Source: an uncultured Lachnospiraceae bacterium
Lineage (GTDB): Bacteria > Bacillota > Clostridia > Lachnospirales > Lachnospiraceae
Direction: 5' to 3'
NCBI GenBank assembly: GCA_946631295.1
Contig: CAMOZY010000023.1
Location: forward strand, 1 to 34,125
DNA: 34,125 nucleotides
Each line of letters starts with the position of its first letter. The first letter of the stretch is position 1. The position numbers and the translations under genes are program-made. This document shows positions 3,573 through 10,424 of this stretch, in pieces. Below the pieces are notes generated by a model. It made no database searches, had not been told where the DNA came from, and saw only the letters and a list, made by a program, of their open reading frames with translations.

Positions 3573-3947
3573 ATGGAAATGAAGGATATGGAATTAGGAG
3601 CACTGCAGGAAAGATTCGCAGATGTCGTATGGGCCAATGAGCCTGTATCATCCGGCGAACTTGTTAAGATATGTGAGAAGGAGTTCAGCTGGAAAAAGCC
3701 CACGACATATACTGTGCTCAGAAAGCTCTGTGAAAAAGGCCTGCTGCAGAATGAAGACGGCGTAGTCACATCTCTTATAGACAGGGATGAATTCTATTCC
3801 GCAAAGAGTGAGCAGATAATTGAAGATTCATATGAGGGATCGCTTCCTGCATTTATTGCTGCATTCACTTCCCGTAAAAAACTTTCCAAAAAGGAAGTTG
3901 ACGAGATACAGAAGATGATCGACGGATTTAAGAAACAGGGGCGTTAA
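3573..3947 (+). CDS. BlaI/MecI/CopY-family transcriptional repressor
   Basis: This 124-residue protein has the Penicillinase_R layout: an N-terminal winged helix (LGALQERFADVVWANEPVSSGELVKICEKEFSWKKPTTYTVLRKLCEKGLL, about residues 8-58) and a C-terminal dimerisation part (about 75-121). The family represses beta-lactamase, mecA or copper genes and is inactivated by cleavage by a BlaR1 partner, which here begins two bases after its stop. AAAGGAG five bases upstream supports ATG 3573; ATG 3579 is an alternative. No beta-lactamase or penicillin-binding protein gene is in the operon, so its targets may be elsewhere or only its own operon. Confidence 0.92.
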   Translation: MEMKDMELGALQERFADVVWANEPVSSGELVKICEKEFSWKKPTTYTVLRKLCEKGLLQNEDGVVTSLIDRDEFYSAKSEQIIEDSYEGSLPAFIAAFTSRKKLSKKEVDEIQKMIDGFKKQGR

Positions 3948-3949
3948 GT

Positions 3950-5788
3950 ATGAGTGAAATATTTTTGAAGATATTGAATATGACACTGAACGCATCATGG
4001 CTGATACTTGCCGTGATGGCAGCAAGGCTTTTCCTGAAAAGAGCACCAAGATGGGTATCATGTCTGCTTTGGGCTCTTGTGGCATTCAGGCTTATATGTC
4101 CGGTCTCATTAACCAGTGCACTCAGCCTGCTTCCAAGCAGTGAAGTGATTCCGGTCAATATAACAATGCAGCAGGATCCTCATATCTATTCCGGAATAAG
4201 GATCATTGACAATACGGTTAATCCGGCTATGGCAGAAACGATGGCTCCGGATCCCGGATCAAGCGTCAATCCCATGCAGGTGGTTGCATATGCAGCCGGA
4301 ATTGTATGGATAGCAGGAATGATAATGATGTGCGGATATGCACTTATCAGCAGTCTTCTCCTGAAAAGAAAAGTCAGGATATCTGCTCCCATATCTGACG
4401 GAGTATTTGAGTGTGATGAGGTAAAGTCACCTTTTATCCTTGGGATATTCAGACCTTCAATATATGTTCCGTCCGGAATGGATAAGGAGACACTTGAATA
4501 TGTTACTGCTCATGAAAGAGCTCACCTTGCGAGATTCGATCATGTATGGAAACCACTGGGATTCCTGATCTTATCAGTATATTGGTTCAATCCTTTGTGT
4601 TGGTTTGCATATATCCTTCTTTGCAGAGACATCGAAAGCGCTTGCGATGAAAAGGTGATCCGTGATAAAGACAAAGATTTTATGGCAGCTTATTCACAGG
4701 CGCTTCTTGACTGCAGTATCCAGAGACATGTTATTGCTGCATGTCCGCTGGCATTTGGTGAGACGGATGTTAAGTCAAGAGTTAAGGGTGTTCTGAATTA
4801 TAAGAAGCCTGCATTCTGGGTGATCATCATATCGGTTGCGGTATGCGTTATCATTGGCATATGCTTTATAACCAATCCTCAAAAAGATAACGGACCGGGA
4901 ACGGTTCAGGCGGCCGAAGATGGAAATACAGAGCCGGCCGAGGATTTTGCTCAGTCCGAACCCGTTACAGATTCTTCAGAGATAGTCCTTCAGAATACAC
5001 AGACCTATTCATATACCGGCAATACCGGAATGACATACGGAAGAGGGTGGATTGATTTTGGTATTACGCTTAATCCTGATGGTACATATACATGGTATGA
5101 GTCTCCGATAAGCAGTTATATAGGATTCGGCGCTTACCAAATAGAAGACGGCATCCTGATAATGCGTGATGATCCAAGGATTGGTACAGATAGAGTAAAC
5201 AGATTCAGGATGGAAGGTGACAGCCTGTTCTTCATTGCAGATGGTTCCGATAATTTCAGCATGGTCCAGCTTGAAGATGGAGAAGAATTTGTTTTAATGG
5301 ATTATGAGGAGATTGCAGGAGATGAGTTTGCTCAGGATGATTCGATTCATGATGTGGATTCAGAATCAGATGATTCTCTCCAGACTGCAGATTCCCGGGC
5401 GGATAATCCTGTGACTTTGAATGCAGTGCCTGTTGAGGTGATCGTAATAACAAGATCCTTTGACGCGGATGAGCATCCCGAGACGGATTTTGCCGGACAG
5501 ACCGGCACTTCAATCTACGCTGTATGCGATGGAAGCGTCACGGAAGCAGGATTTGATGAAATAGACGGTAATTATATTATCATCACTCCGGATGCAAACC
5601 TTTCAGTTCGCATCACATACAGTCATCTGGAAGATATTAATGTTGAAGCAGGAGATGCATTTAAGGCCGGGGATGTAATAGGCACGCTCGGTAATACCGG
5701 AAATTCTACCGGTCCCCATCTTGGACTGATGATGACAGTGGGAGGAAATCCTGTTGATATCATGGAATCACTCCCCGTGGAGGAGTAA
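3950..5788 (+). CDS. BlaR1/MecR1-family M56 membrane metallopeptidase with degenerate C-terminal M23 domain
   Basis: This 612-residue signalling protease pairs with the BlaI homologue upstream. The N-terminal half has several membrane helices and an M56 peptidase core: HERAH at 188-192 (the HExxH zinc site) and ESACDEKVI further on. A last helix at about 290-310 is followed by an extracytoplasmic part: a linker, a small beta domain (about 355-450, NPDGTYTWYESPISSYIGFGAYQ) and a LytM/M23-like domain (about 490-608). That domain keeps HPETD (509-513) and YSHL (H559), but the usual closing HLH reads H590-L-G592, so one zinc ligand is missing and the domain is probably non-catalytic. It replaces the penicillin sensor of classical BlaR1. 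It may bind cell-wall material; the ligand is unknown. Confidence 0.88.
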   Translation: MSEIFLKILNMTLNASWLILAVMAARLFLKRAPRWVSCLLWALVAFRLICPVSLTSALSLLPSSEVIPVNITMQQDPHIYSGIRIIDNTVNPAMAETMAPDPGSSVNPMQVVAYAAGIVWIAGMIMMCGYALISSLLLKRKVRISAPISDGVFECDEVKSPFILGIFRPSIYVPSGMDKETLEYVTAHERAHLARFDHVWKPLGFLILSVYWFNPLCWFAYILLCRDIESACDEKVIRDKDKDFMAAYSQALLDCSIQRHVIAACPLAFGETDVKSRVKGVLNYKKPAFWVIIISVAVCVIIGICFITNPQKDNGPGTVQAAEDGNTEPAEDFAQSEPVTDSSEIVLQNTQTYSYTGNTGMTYGRGWIDFGITLNPDGTYTWYESPISSYIGFGAYQIEDGILIMRDDPRIGTDRVNRFRMEGDSLFFIADGSDNFSMVQLEDGEEFVLMDYEEIAGDEFAQDDSIHDVDSESDDSLQTADSRADNPVTLNAVPVEVIVITRSFDADEHPETDFAGQTGTSIYAVCDGSVTEAGFDEIDGNYIIITPDANLSVRITYSHLEDINVEAGDAFKAGDVIGTLGNTGNSTGPHLGLMMTVGGNPVDIMESLPVEE

Positions 5789-5833
5789 CAGACGGTCTGT
5801 ATTCTAAGCCTGATAATATAGGAAAATATAGTG

Positions 5834-5877
5834 AAAGATCCCTTAGTAGTGACTGAGGGATCTTTTGTTATTTTTTG
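5834..5877 (+). terminator. Intrinsic terminator after blaI/blaR1
   Basis: 13-bp stem (one G-T pair) formed by 5834-5846 and 5853-5865, core GATCCCT / AGGGATC, 6-base loop, then a T-rich run to 5876. The -35 box of the next promoter begins inside its tail. Confidence 0.88.
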
Positions 5878-5893
5878 CGGAATATTATATAAT
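5865..5893 (+). promoter_or_regulatory. Promoter of the EAL-ExbB-ExbD operon
   Basis: TTGTTA (5865-5870), exactly 17 bases, then TATAAT (5888-5893). The predicted start of transcription near 5900 leaves a leader of about 35 bases before ATG 5935. No other convincing promoter is seen down to 9856, so the four genes probably share it. Confidence 0.75.
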
Positions 5894-5934: not shown

Positions 5935-8154
5935 ATGAAAAGCGGAAAAGAAAAACAGATCTCAAAACTGAAGAAGGGACACGGATGGCTTTCGCTTGTC
6001 CTTTTTTTGCTGTTCAGTGTTATTGCAGCAATTCTTTTGATCGACTGCGTTGTGACGGTCGGATATTATATGGTACAGACCAAGATCGCATCCGAGTATG
6101 AATCTGTTGCATACATGGCCAGAATCTATGATCACGGTCTGGAAAATGACTCAGAAGACCTGATGTGGGATATCCTTGATGAGGAAGGAAGGGATTATAT
6201 CATCAGGGATGAAGCCGGCAGGCTTTTACACGGAGATGCAGATAATACCTGCTACAATTCCGGAAGAACAACCCATATCGCAAATGTAGAGGGCGAGATC
6301 ACAATCTATCCGGATAAGGAAAATACCTATATCTGGGTTGATGATGACGGAGATATCACTTTTGATGTGATTAGAATGATCAAGCTGCTTGAAGAAGGCA
6401 GAGGCGAAGAAACTGCAGATATTCTGGTTGTCAATGATGACATAATCGATACGGAATCAAGCTTTTTCGGCGGATATGCATTTGCCTTTTCCACAGGTAT
6501 TCAGATAAGGCTTCCTTACTGGATTGGAATAGATGCTGATGGAGGAAATTCTAAGTTCATAGGCAGGGGATGTGTGTCGATCATGCTCGGAGACCTTGCC
6601 ATTATGGGAACGGCGATGATCTCAGTCGGTCTTCTTCTTGTTCTTATCTTCTTCCTTTTCCTCGGAAATATGATCAGCAATATCAGGAATACGTACAGGG
6701 TAAGAAAGGTACTGTTCAGAGATCTTGCAACCGGCGGCCACAACCAGACCTGGTTTACTTATTACGGTGAGAAGAAGCTTAAAACCGGGTTTGCCAAAGA
6801 GTCTACTTTTGCGGTAGTGGATCTTCATATCGTAAAATACAATTCATACTGTATGTGTCACTCTGTTGCTGACGGAGAAAAGCTTCTCAAGCAGACAAGT
6901 TCCTGTATAAAGAAGCATTTGAAAATGGGCGAGCTGAGTGCTTATGCAACAAATGGTGAATTCCATCTTCTGTTAAAAGCAGACAACCAGGATGCGCTTG
7001 TTCAGAGGCTTCGCACACTTATATCGGAACTTGAGAAGATTGATCAGGCACACGCTTTCACATATCATCTGGGTATTTCTCTGATCCCTCCTTTCAGGAC
7101 TGAAAGCGGAAAGATAAAGAAGCGCAAGTGGGTTGATCTTGATCAGGAATGCAATAATGCCGCAACCGCAAGAAAGACCATTGAAGGAAATGAAGGATCC
7201 GATATAGCCTTCTTCGATGTCAAACTCATAGAGGAAAGAAAGTGGCAGGATCAGGTTGAGGAGCATTGCAGGGAAGCACTTCAGAATGAATCCTTTATCG
7301 TATATTATCAGCCCAAGTATGATCCTTCATCGGGAATTTTGAAGGGAGCAGAGGCTCTGATAAGGTGGAGATCCACAGGCTTCGGAGGCTATAAGGAAGG
7401 TGAACTTATACCACCCGGGAGATTTATTCCTATTTTTGAGCATAACGGGTTTATTACCGAGATCGATCACTATATGTTAAAGCATGTTGCAGCTGATCAG
7501 AAGAGGTGGATTGATCAGGGATTTACCTGTGTGCCCGTTTCGGTCAATGTATCAAGAGCTCATTTCATCGAGCCGGATCTTGCAGAACAGATAAGGGATG
7601 TTGTTGATGCGGCCGGTGCTCCAAGAAATCTTATTGAGCTAGAGCTTACGGAGAGTGCATTCTTCGATGACAAGAATGCTCTTGTCCGCACGATAGATAA
7701 ACTGAAGGAATATGGCTTTGCCGTATCGATGGACGATTTCGGATCCGGATATTCATCACTCAATTCCCTCAAGGATATGCCTCTTGATGTGCTGAAGATA
7801 GATGCCGAATTCTTCCGCGGTGAAAATGCCGGAGAGCGTGGCAAGATCGTTGTTTCGGAGACGATAAAGCTTGCAAGAAGTCTCAATATGCGTACCGTTG
7901 CCGAGGGCGTTGAAGCCAAGGATCAGGTTGATTTCCTTGCAGGACAGGGCTGCGATATGATTCAGGGTTATTATTTCGAAAAGCCCATGCCCGGCAGCGA
8001 TTATGAAGAGATGATGAGAAGGCGTGTGAGCGACAAGCCTGCTGCAGGATTTTCCCCGGAGGCAGCATCTGAGGTGAATCCTGAAACGGCCACTGAAGCT
8101 GCCACTGCGGCGGTCGTTGAAGCAGAAAGCCCGGCTGAGACCTCTCAAGAATGA
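5935..8154 (+). CDS. Membrane c-di-GMP phosphodiesterase: extracytoplasmic sensor, degenerate GGDEF, intact EAL
   Basis: This 739-residue protein is predicted to hydrolyse cyclic di-GMP. A first membrane helix (about 20-45), an extracytoplasmic acidic region (about 46-215) and a second helix (about 222-247) make a sensor module. The cytosolic part has a GGDEF-like domain (about 275-430) whose signature reads TNGEF (339-343), so it should not synthesise c-di-GMP. An EAL domain follows (about 445-690) with E473-A-L, LELTES, D600-D601-FGSGYSS, K621-I-D623, AEGVE (E657, E660) and QGYYFEKP, all expected for activity. The tail from about 700 is Ala/Glu-rich and disordered-looking. AAGGGGAG supports the start. 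The ExbB-like gene begins 28 bases later. Confidence 0.93.
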   Translation: MKSGKEKQISKLKKGHGWLSLVLFLLFSVIAAILLIDCVVTVGYYMVQTKIASEYESVAYMARIYDHGLENDSEDLMWDILDEEGRDYIIRDEAGRLLHGDADNTCYNSGRTTHIANVEGEITIYPDKENTYIWVDDDGDITFDVIRMIKLLEEGRGEETADILVVNDDIIDTESSFFGGYAFAFSTGIQIRLPYWIGIDADGGNSKFIGRGCVSIMLGDLAIMGTAMISVGLLLVLIFFLFLGNMISNIRNTYRVRKVLFRDLATGGHNQTWFTYYGEKKLKTGFAKESTFAVVDLHIVKYNSYCMCHSVADGEKLLKQTSSCIKKHLKMGELSAYATNGEFHLLLKADNQDALVQRLRTLISELEKIDQAHAFTYHLGISLIPPFRTESGKIKKRKWVDLDQECNNAATARKTIEGNEGSDIAFFDVKLIEERKWQDQVEEHCREALQNESFIVYYQPKYDPSSGILKGAEALIRWRSTGFGGYKEGELIPPGRFIPIFEHNGFITEIDHYMLKHVAADQKRWIDQGFTCVPVSVNVSRAHFIEPDLAEQIRDVVDAAGAPRNLIELELTESAFFDDKNALVRTIDKLKEYGFAVSMDDFGSGYSSLNSLKDMPLDVLKIDAEFFRGENAGERGKIVVSETIKLARSLNMRTVAEGVEAKDQVDFLAGQGCDMIQGYYFEKPMPGSDYEEMMRRRVSDKPAAGFSPEAASEVNPETATEAATAAVVEAESPAETSQE

Positions 8155-8182
8155 TCTGATAAGAATCTGACAGGAGATAACC

Positions 8183-8917
8183 ATGAAGATACTTTGTGAA
8201 TTCTTAAATGTATTGGTAAATCCGCTCATATATCTGCTCGCAATTGCTGAGTTTGTTCTTATGTGGGTATCAATATGGACACTTACGGGATTCAGAAAGA
8301 GGATATCCGATCTTAACAGAGATAATATCCGTAAGATAAAGCTGAGCAAGACCAAGGGCAAGCGTGAGGTCAGCAAGACTGTAGAGAGGGTTGAATCCAG
8401 AAACTGGGACGATTTTGAGAGATTCCAGAGGGATTATCAGAAGGGAAGCGTGTGGTATTCCGCATTTTCACTGATCATCCAGTTGTTTACTCTTCTGGGC
8501 ATACTCGGAACCGTAGTAGGACTGTACATTGCGATGAACAATGGTGAAGATCTATACAGAGGCGTGGGTCTTGCACTTACCACAACGATAAACGGTATTC
8601 TTTTTGCCGTGATATTCAAGCTGGTCGATATAGGCATCACTGCGATGCTTCTGAATTTCATTGATGATGGTATAGATATTTTCGTTGATTCCTACAAGGC
8701 TGACAGCGATGATGCCACCAGAAATGCGATGCTGGAAAGCGGAAGGGAAACTGCCTTTGAAAAAGAAGGTGAAGCTGAAGGCAAAACCGGTACTGAAGCC
8801 GTAAGCACCCCGGACAGTGAACCGGTTAAAGCTAATGATAATGAGTCTGAATCTAAAGAGACTGTGACGGAAGAGAAAGAATCCGAAATCCAAAATGAGA
8901 AAAAGACGCAGGAATAA
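8183..8917 (+). CDS. MotA/TolQ/ExbB-family proton channel subunit
   Basis: This 244-residue membrane protein has a helix at about 10-35, a cytosolic loop rich in Lys/Arg (about 38-90), and two helices at about 92-115 and 125-155. The family signature is FTLLGILGTVVGLYIAMNN followed by GVGLALTTTINGILFAVIFKLVD, the pore-lining helices of ExbB/TolQ. Such subunits form pentamers around an ExbD dimer and turn proton flow into motion. The last ~70 residues are highly charged, low complexity and probably disordered. AGGAGA five bases upstream fixes ATG 8183. It overlaps the ExbD-like gene by 23 bases. No TonB, TolA or flagellar gene is nearby, so the driven partner is unknown. Confidence 0.88.
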   Translation: MKILCEFLNVLVNPLIYLLAIAEFVLMWVSIWTLTGFRKRISDLNRDNIRKIKLSKTKGKREVSKTVERVESRNWDDFERFQRDYQKGSVWYSAFSLIIQLFTLLGILGTVVGLYIAMNNGEDLYRGVGLALTTTINGILFAVIFKLVDIGITAMLLNFIDDGIDIFVDSYKADSDDATRNAMLESGRETAFEKEGEAEGKTGTEAVSTPDSEPVKANDNESESKETVTEEKESEIQNEKKTQE

Positions 8918-9434
8918 TTTAACAGAGATCAATCTGACACCGCTTCTTGATGTCCTGTTTTCCATTCTCTTTATCGTGATGATGACAGGCGCCAGAACCA
9001 GAGACATGGTTCAGAGCGAGCATGAAGAGCAGGTAGCGGTCCTCGAAGAGGAAAACGCAAGACTCAGCGAAGCCCTCAGGGCAAATGAGGAGCAGCTAGC
9101 CGCATATGAACTTCATGAGTCCGATTCCGTGATCATAACGGTGAGAAATACCGTAAGTGGAAGCAATCACGTTCTTCAGATATACAGAGGAGTCGAGGAA
9201 AGTGAGATCGCAAGTATCCGCATGGGACTTGATCAGACGGAGAATACAAGGACTCGTATCAGCAGCCTGATCGAGGAAATCGTTGAAGAAAACGGAGATC
9301 AGCCGGTTTATATAGTTTTTTACTGCGACAAGAGCAGGATATATACAAAAGAATATAATGTCGTTACGGATGCTTTTACGGAACTGCAGTCAAAATATAA
9401 GGAAGTGTTCTTCAAGGTAGGGGAGGAAGATTGA
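8895..9434 (+). CDS. ExbD/TolR-like proton channel subunit
   Basis: This 179-residue protein starts with the classical ExbD opening: a basic N terminus, TEINLTPLLDVLFSILFIVMM, one membrane helix (about 17-35) and Asp19 at the place of the conserved proton-carrying Asp. Unlike typical ExbD (about 140 residues) it has a coiled-coil stretch (about 40-78) between membrane and C-terminal domain. The C-terminal part (about 80-179, with QPVYIVFYCDKSRIYTKEYNVVTDAF) resembles the ExbD peptidoglycan-facing fold. It overlaps the ExbB-like gene by 23 bases, and its stop overlaps the next ATG by one base, so the subunits are likely made together. Confidence 0.85.
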   Translation: MRKRRRNNLTEINLTPLLDVLFSILFIVMMTGARTRDMVQSEHEEQVAVLEEENARLSEALRANEEQLAAYELHESDSVIITVRNTVSGSNHVLQIYRGVEESEIASIRMGLDQTENTRTRISSLIEEIVEENGDQPVYIVFYCDKSRIYTKEYNVVTDAFTELQSKYKEVFFKVGEED

Positions 9435-9856
9435 TGAAAAAACTGGCTAATATTGTTAAGGTCATACTTGTTCTGCTGATACTTGCGATACTTGTACTGT
9501 TTCTTCTTAATAAATTCGGATTCGGGTTCGGTAACGGACTGGGATTCGGAATCGGGGATACGATACAGAATTCTGACACATCGTCAAGAAATGTTGAAAC
9601 CAGTGAAGAAAATGTGAGAGGAACCGGTTCTTCATCGGAAGAGCTCCCTCTTCTGATCACGGTTACGATCCGTGAAGACAAGGTTTATGTCGAAGATAAA
9701 GAGATAGGCAGTGCTGAAGAATTAAAGGATTATATAGAGTCTATCAATACAGATGAGAGGGAATACAGACTTGTTGACGAGAATTCAATAAGAGCTACAT
9801 ACGAGTGGGTGACCGGAGTTTTCGATGAACTTAAGATTCCTATTTCCCAGGAATAA
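9434..9856 (+). CDS. Second ExbD-like extracytoplasmic protein lacking the transmembrane Asp
   Basis: This 140-residue protein has one N-terminal membrane helix (about 5-27), a Gly/Phe stretch (FGFGFGNGLGFGIG), a Ser/Glu linker and a C-terminal domain (about 72-139) beginning LLITVTIREDKVYVEDKEIGSAEELKDYIES. That domain has the beta-alpha pattern of the ExbD/TolR C-terminal domain. The membrane helix has no Asp or Glu, so it cannot carry protons as ExbD does. The ATG at 9434 is chosen over TTG 9431 because GGAGG lies seven bases upstream. It is the last gene of the operon. ExbD likeness is by pattern only and should be treated as tentative. Confidence 0.6.
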   Translation: MKKLANIVKVILVLLILAILVLFLLNKFGFGFGNGLGFGIGDTIQNSDTSSRNVETSEENVRGTGSSSEELPLLITVTIREDKVYVEDKEIGSAEELKDYIESINTDEREYRLVDENSIRATYEWVTGVFDELKIPISQE

Positions 9857-9863
9857 AAAGATA

Positions 9864-9892
9864 TTACCATAAACCTACAAATATGGTAGAAT
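9864..9892 (+). promoter_or_regulatory. Probable luxS promoter with overlapping dyad
   Basis: TTACCA (9864-9869), 17-base spacer, TAGAAT (9887-9892). The inverted repeat TACCAT (9865-9870) / ATGGTA (9883-9888) lies across both boxes, so a dimeric regulator could bind here. No SAM-type riboswitch fits in the short leader. Confidence 0.5.
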
Positions 9893-9944
9893 TAACAACG
9901 GTTTTGCACTGAAATCGTAAAGTTCATTTGTATGGAGGACAGAC

Positions 9945-10424
9945 GTGGAGAAGATAGCCAGTTTTACAATCGATCACATCAAACTACAGCCCGGTGTATA
10001 TGTATCCAGAAAGGACACCGTTGGAAGTGAGGTCTTAACAACATTTGATCTCAGAATGACAAGTCCCAACGAGGAACCTGTCATGAATACCGCGGAGATG
10101 CATACGATCGAGCATCTCGGAGCTACATATCTCAGGAATCATGCTGAATGGAAGGAAAGGGTCATATATTTCGGCCCCATGGGATGCAGGACAGGCTTTT
10201 ATCTGATCCTTGCAGGGGATCTTGCAAGTAAGGATATTGTTGATCTGGTCACCGGAATGTATGAATTTATAAGAGATTTTGAGGGAGATATTCCCGGAGC
10301 TTCACCCAAGGATTGCGGAAATTATCTTGATCAGAATCTTGGCATGGCATCATTTTTAGCAAACAGATATCTCAATAATGTATTGTATGGCATTACTGAG
10401 GAGAGGCTTATCTATCCCCAGTGA
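9945..10424 (+). CDS. luxS: S-ribosylhomocysteine lyase (autoinducer-2 synthase)
   Basis: LuxS splits S-ribosylhomocysteine into homocysteine and DPD, the precursor of autoinducer-2, in the activated methyl cycle. The 159-residue length is normal. The iron/zinc ligands H53 and H57 (in HTIEH) and C124 (SPKDCGNY) are present, as are the catalytic Cys81 in GPMGCRTGFY and E56. The start is GTG 9945, with GGAGG about 9 bases upstream. The next gene makes the LuxS substrate, and its start lies 11 bases after the luxS stop. All key residues are intact, so an active enzyme is expected. Confidence 0.97.
   Translation: MEKIASFTIDHIKLQPGVYVSRKDTVGSEVLTTFDLRMTSPNEEPVMNTAEMHTIEHLGATYLRNHAEWKERVIYFGPMGCRTGFYLILAGDLASKDIVDLVTGMYEFIRDFEGDIPGASPKDCGNYLDQNLGMASFLANRYLNNVLYGITEERLIYPQ

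Follow-up and report, generated by a model that had tools for sequence, protein, structure and literature searches.

A putative ExbB-ExbD-type motor cassette with a third, ExbD-fold protein behind a cyclic di-GMP phosphodiesterase gene in a Lachnospiraceae bacterium

Results

The genes at the locus

The window, by which we mean the whole 34,125-nucleotide stretch analysed here, belongs to an uncultured Lachnospiraceae bacterium (assembly GCA_946631295.1, contig CAMOZY010000023.1, positions 1 to 34,125 of the forward strand). Four of its open reading frames (ORFs) encode a predicted cyclic di-GMP (c-di-GMP) phosphodiesterase of the EAL type, an ExbB-like channel subunit, an ExbD-like subunit and a small third protein that we call P4. 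The last three are a portable cassette that would encode an ion-driven motor and that, in one group of species, was most likely inserted behind the EAL gene. The features concerned are as follows.

5935..8154, + strand: EAL phosphodiesterase, 739 amino acids (ORF, Pfam, PDB profile, alignments)
8041..8151, + strand: C-terminal tail stretch of the EAL protein, limits approximate; found in three cassette species and not in 14 EAL proteins from cassette-less loci
8183..8917, + strand: channel subunit of ExbB/TolQ/MotA type, 244 amino acids, with an acidic cytoplasmic tail (PF01618; PDB profile)
8895..9434, + strand: ExbD-type subunit, 179 amino acids, with LTPLLDV containing Asp19, a long helix and then an alpha/beta outer domain
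9434..9856, + strand: P4, 140 amino acids, with one transmembrane helix without Asp, a GFGFGNGLGFG motif and disordered linker, and an outer domain (residues 74-139) modelled in the ExbD/TolR fold

A preliminary description made from the letters had proposed four genes with overlaps of 23 and 1 bases, and the ORF coordinates bear this out, ExbB and ExbD sharing 8895-8917 and ExbD and P4 sharing position 9434.

The channel subunit and the ExbD-like subunit

The ExbB-like assignment of that description holds, since PF01618 matches the protein with 34.1 bits, above the cut-off of 22.9. Residues G106, G109, T110, T135 and G138, which lie in the second and third membrane helices, were invariant in 13 of 13 aligned sequences, and these Gly and Thr residues line up with the GT and the T..G of MotA/PomA. 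Profile matches in the PDB comprised MotA, PomA and TolQ, the best being MotA/PomA. The ExbD call stood on its key residue and fell short on its Pfam score: PF02472 gave 20.8 bits, under the cut-off of 25.4, whereas the membrane-helix aspartate, Asp19, is the single invariant column over 43 aligned relatives. In addition, 13 of 14 relatives gave an E of at most 1 with PF02472, the lowest being 2.9e-5. Judged by sequence family and invariant Asp, the assignment as a predicted ExbD is firm despite the sub-cut-off score.

P4, a third protein with a predicted ExbD fold

P4 alone matched no Pfam family. The predicted structure of its outer domain matches the periplasmic fold of ExbD/TolR, in agreement with the earlier view of a second ExbD-like protein. 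The proton-carrying Asp is missing from its membrane helix, and among the relatives of P4 LD[VI] occurs within the first 60 residues in 0 of 54, while D or E falls in the best hydrophobic window in 3 of 54. A profile-profile comparison of ExbD with P4 gave no convincing similarity. The model thus supports P4 as an ExbD-fold protein. The new element would be a recurrent ExbBD-type motor, in a host where no outer-membrane markers were detected, that places the helix for the proton and the canonical ExbD domain on two separate proteins, ExbD and P4.

Spread and neighbours of the cassette

ExbB, ExbD and P4 were contiguous in 65 of the 71 loci examined, nearly all from one order. At the six others an antisense ORF splits the set (L028), the contig ends (L035), P4 comes first (L119 and L121), no P4 was found (L190) or the ExbB frame was read but not called (L201, left out of the neighbour counts, which cover 70 loci); L122, a MotA match, and L020, which was spurious, had been dropped. 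A search with an ExbB alignment placed cassette-type matches well apart from MotA matches, the latter lying at E above 1e-9. Counting the host each time, 11 of the 31 genomes from the genus had cassette-type ExbB (E <= 1.8e-27), as did 29 of 397 in the family sample (E <= 1.1e-14). The order sample gave 44 of 392 and the class sample 3 of 391 (both E <= 1e-12), so that at this last threshold the cassette is rare outside the order. The analysis of gene context excludes 17 of the order sample's 44 genomes. A viral collection searched with the same alignment returned a single short match of 22 residues (L202).

The genes around the cassette vary: AIM24 with a second P4-like gene and an exported-looking protein, FecR, H-NOX/MCP, topoisomerase with ilvN, and histidine kinases were all seen, while some cassettes have no shared neighbours and unrelated genes, including a methionine-synthase-like one, stand beside others. 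ExbB-ExbD-P4 is therefore a portable three-gene cassette with many different neighbours. We found no description of the set among open-licence PubMed Central papers, and the gene family looks like a real, recurrent and undescribed motor family.

Two variants were also observed. Many cassettes of the family have the six-gene form AIM24-ExbB-ExbD-P4-P4-exported protein, the last of 320-340 residues (for example L025:6988-10833), and at L120:7625-8797 a LysM-glycosyl hydrolase 18 protein, which we take to be of the spore-cortex-lytic type, lies directly behind the cassette.

The EAL protein

The EAL domain (residues 445-684; PF00563, E 1.9e-60) was called correctly in the preliminary description. 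It is preceded by a transmembrane helix (22-40), an outer domain (about 41-224), a second transmembrane helix (225-243) and a degenerate GGDEF part (24.4 bits against a cut-off of 23.8, with NGEF at the signature site), and followed by an Ala/Glu-rich tail from about residue 702. Its closest PDB match is MorA (E 7e-53), aligned end to end, and the positions EAL, N, E, DDFG, K, E and Q, which we take to be the metal and catalytic ones, are retained in that alignment; from its sequence the phosphodiesterase looks intact. Membrane GGDEF-EAL phosphodiesterases of the MorA type resemble it in the EAL domain and in having a degenerate GGDEF, and differ in that the window protein has another outer domain and, in three species, a motor cassette joined to its gene. 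In these three species, 58, 75 and 108 residues follow the QG(Y/F) motif, compared to 16-28 in 14 other EAL proteins. The extra tail, acidic and 38-88 residues long, starts at the point where the other EAL proteins end and may either touch the motor or be a scar left by insertion.

Transcription signals and flanking genes

The signals and the gene that bound the four ORFs are listed below.

5828..5871, + strand: terminator-like hairpin and T run at the end of the upstream M56/M23 gene (pattern scan: 2 found, 3.1 expected by chance)
5865..5893, + strand: sigma-70-like promoter before EAL, TTGTTA-17-TATAAT, 10/12 matches
9864..9892, + strand: promoter-like site of luxS, its extended -10 being TGGTAGAAT (9884-9892); the downstream bound of the operon
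9945..10424, + strand: luxS, the usual direct neighbour of the EAL gene in cassette-less congeners; a boundary outside the system

The site at 5865-5893, which overlaps the tail of the hairpin, had been described as one good promoter. It is indeed the best of 8 scanned sites, but their number is at chance level (8.6 expected) and so not significant; as the EAL promoter it is plausible. All 13 of the EAL-luxS loci compared carry TGnTAnnAT ahead of luxS, in the gap that follows the upstream gene, and plain shuffling of the window's stretch produced it in 82 of 2000 cases. The occurrence in all 13 loci indicates that luxS most likely starts its own transcript.

Across the genus, luxS leaders share a conserved CGGTTTTG..AACTAACCG-like element, whose window copy lies at 9887-9930 and has no Rfam match; a search of the window for RNA elements returned none reaching the gathering score. 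Upstream, at 3573-5788, a gene for a BlaI-like repressor is followed by one whose product is a BlaR1-type M56 protein with an M23 peptidase domain fused to it.

How EAL and the cassette probably came together

Besides the host, two further species retain the order EAL-ExbB-ExbD-P4, and across the three the four proteins are 58-75% identical, which is more than chance would give; adjacency beyond this genome, on which the preliminary description depended, is thus real. Its idea of the four genes as a conserved unit, on the other hand, was rejected, since EAL lies directly upstream of the cassette at 3 of 71 loci, all in one genus, and 15 of 18 genomes with a strong EAL match lack the cassette behind it. 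These 18 (E < 1e-30), out of 31 genomes of the genus, were obtained with the N-terminal 252 residues of the EAL protein as query; at E <= 0.001 there were 25, and the 7 weaker ones are left out of the context counts. The 15 cassette-less loci divide into ten with EAL-luxS-pfs, two with EAL-pfs, one with pfs divergent, one where the contig end cuts EAL (L151) and one with no luxS, pfs or sulfatase nearby (L152). In the three cassette species the cassette begins 28, 9 and 32 bases behind EAL and lies ahead of the luxS promoter. The upstream neighbours of EAL differ across all three, whereas the EAL-cassette junction is constant.

When EAL, pfs and sulfatase were used to build an unrooted tree, a split with support 100 set the three cassette species against the other 14. 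A second tree, built on ExbB and ExbD of 63 loci, placed the cassettes of the three species with L104 and then L111, both with support 100, apart from the other cassettes of their genus. The best outside match to the cassette, 46% identical, comes from the genus of L104 and is not among the tree sequences. Among the relatives found, the nearest therefore lie in another genus. Together with the EAL-luxS junctions elsewhere, this makes insertion into the EAL-luxS gap the simplest history: most likely, as judged from gene order and trees, the cassette was inserted between EAL and the luxS promoter and joined to the transcription unit of EAL. The alternative, that the cassette was lost elsewhere, is less likely.

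The luxS gene itself differs in type: that of the window (9945-10424) is 46% identical to those at the same place in L021 (11102-11644) and L022 (4762-5328), which are 94% alike, while the adjacent pfs genes are 88-94% alike across the three. By sequence, luxS looks as if it had been replaced in place.

Signalling genes beside other cassettes

Neighbouring signalling genes were surveyed with five signalling-domain queries; a query with the whole EAL protein had missed the GGDEF gene at L101, which Pfam found. Direct neighbours on the same strand carried signalling functions in five lineages: EAL (the three species), MCP with H-NOX (L031), a response regulator with a kinase (L032), GGDEF (L101) and a hybrid kinase. 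The last, a seven-transmembrane hybrid histidine kinase of about 930 residues with receiver and Hpt domains, lies directly 3′ of the cassette at L217, L218, L220, L221 and L222, five of the nine cassette loci that the genus of G402 yielded. At L101:2607-4295 (- strand), a membrane GGDEF protein of 563 residues stands 18 bases behind the cassette, a maker of c-di-GMP in place of a breaker. Signalling-domain genes made up 16 of 138 genes within two genes of the cassette and 15 of 424 elsewhere (p 0.0008); once each ExbB cluster was represented by a single locus, median p was 0.017 within two genes and 0.14 for direct neighbours. A wider tie between cassette and signalling proteins is suggested by these data as a lead and is not proven.

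The preliminary description had gone further, to an envelope machine tied to c-di-GMP. The motor set and EAL do stand in one apparent operon, but a general tie found no support: since the cassette mostly occurs without EAL and EAL mostly without the cassette, such a machine would at best be confined to one small group. Read more loosely, as a motor beside some signalling protein, the pattern recurs in the five lineages with weak statistics.

Host envelope and comparison with known motors

In the host genome (91% complete) we found no match to the TonB C-terminal domain (PF03544, a single TonB model) or to Omp85 (PF01103), searches that matched 3 and 7 of 14 control genomes, respectively; this fits the Gram-positive host of the preliminary description. 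TolA, TolB and Pal were not seen among the neighbours read, and no search was made with models of these proteins. Most work on proton-driven membrane motors of this kind concerns Gram-negatives. The cassette shares with ExbB-ExbD (Ton) and TolQ-TolR (Tol-Pal) the channel family, an adjacent B subunit with an LTPLLDV-type Asp helix and, in P4, the ExbD/TolR fold. It differs from them in lacking a detected TonB C-terminal domain or Omp85 in its host, in dividing Asp helix and canonical outer domain between two proteins, and in having the Asp-less P4 as a standing third member.

Both AglQ and AglS of the AglR-AglQ-AglS gliding motor carry the Asp, which the window's P4 lacks, and the host group is different; similarly, the second ExbD of Gram-negative ExbB-ExbD1-ExbD2 sets keeps it. 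The gliding motor is like the cassette in joining one channel gene to two B-type proteins, and the Gram-negative sets in placing two ExbD-like genes next to one ExbB, although these occur with TonB and outer-membrane transporters, unlike the cassette. ZorAB of Zorya is a motor of the same broad kind that is used outside motility; Zorya was rejected here because no PADLOC family matched any of the four at an E of 1 or below. ExbB-ExbD and TolQ-TolR are grouped as generic ion transporters, GIT (PMC12505986), and AglQ and AglS are both described as MotB homologues whose heterodimer is unknown (PMC9389320).

Discussion

The reading that we prefer, and to which we would give even chances, is that the portable cassette encodes an ion motor of the ExbBD/TolQR type with P4 as its working arm, and that in one group it was inserted behind EAL and is co-expressed with the phosphodiesterase. 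Gene families, gene order and insertion site are taken from the sequence, and the fold of P4 from a model; from these we infer how the parts assemble and in what ratio, that ions flow, what P4 does, that the genes are co-transcribed, and whatever influence the set may have on c-di-GMP or the wall. By families and residues, ExbB, ExbD and P4 would constitute an inner-membrane motor in which an ExbB pentamer encircles an axle containing ExbD, whose Asp19 would carry the ion. P4 would be anchored beside or within the pentamer and turn the canonical outer domain of ExbD towards the cell wall or an outer partner, its model suggesting a working arm that acts on the wall or a wall-bound partner. By insertion ahead of the luxS promoter, the cassette would have become the 3′ part of the transcription unit of EAL, and if motor and phosphodiesterase are made together, the motor would be produced while c-di-GMP is lowered.

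A broader proposal, which we offer tentatively and think somewhat unlikely as a whole, is an undescribed, widespread class of one-membrane motors. Here the ExbD helix would carry the ion, and P4 would bear the canonical outer domain on a TonB/TolA-like stalk made of helix, Gly-Phe motif and flexible linker; in the axle, ExbD would either pair with P4 as a heterodimer or form a dimer that drives P4 against the wall, and the motor would report the state of the wall to a co-transcribed signalling enzyme, in this case the c-di-GMP phosphodiesterase.

It is unlikely, in our judgement, that the cassette and EAL are mere neighbours, the cassette having landed behind EAL and using its promoter with no common task. 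The scarcity of EAL upstream of cassettes (just 3 of 71 loci), the frequency of EAL without a cassette and the presence of topoisomerase, ilvN, methionine-synthase-like and other unrelated genes beside other cassettes agree with such a chance landing, but EAL and cassette stay joined in three species while the genes upstream of EAL change, and signalling neighbours recur. Direct coupling, as put forward in the preliminary description, in which the outer domain of EAL would share the motor's envelope cue, or the cytoplasmic part of the motor would touch EAL, so that motor activity would set c-di-GMP turnover or the other way round, appears more doubtful. The conserved four-gene order, the acidic tail restricted to EAL proteins of the three cassette species and the signalling genes adjoining the cassette in five lineages speak for it. 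However, the position of the tail would also suit an insertion scar, the tail is a single evolutionary event, the enrichment is weak at one locus per cluster, and the stretches fetched around the nearest cassette relatives (L104, L111 and L216) contain neither an EAL nor a GGDEF protein.

Two further explanations are very improbable. A functionless relic of a Ton or Tol system in a one-membrane cell would be in line with the missing TonB and Omp85 matches and with the occasional complete Ton systems of monoderm Clostridia, likely non-functional according to PMC12204202, yet open frames, an invariant Asp and conserved channel residues over 43 relatives, and a recurrent three-gene order indicate purifying selection rather than decay. 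An accessory flagellar stator of the MotAB kind, suggested by the shared channel-subunit family, by the best PDB matches of ExbB and by the flagellar genes of the host (which has its own MotAB on another contig), was rejected: NCBIfam MotA models score ExbB at 11-17 bits against cut-offs of 237-380, the set has no large cytoplasmic domain and no OmpA-like B subunit (no OmpA family appeared in the Pfam scan of the window proteins), and five cassette genomes, G182, G256, G282, G305 and G333, have no MotA match with all candidates scored.

Whether and how ExbB-family proteins work in Gram-positives is left open, and ExbD is supposed to be absent there, in PMC9389320. The cassette offers a concrete set of genes with which this question could be tested: ExbB is accompanied by an Asp-keeping ExbD and by a standing third protein of predicted ExbD fold in 65 of 71 loci. 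It would provide a natural case of the two ExbD functions divided between two chains, together with a group of hosts whose motor became joined to a c-di-GMP enzyme.
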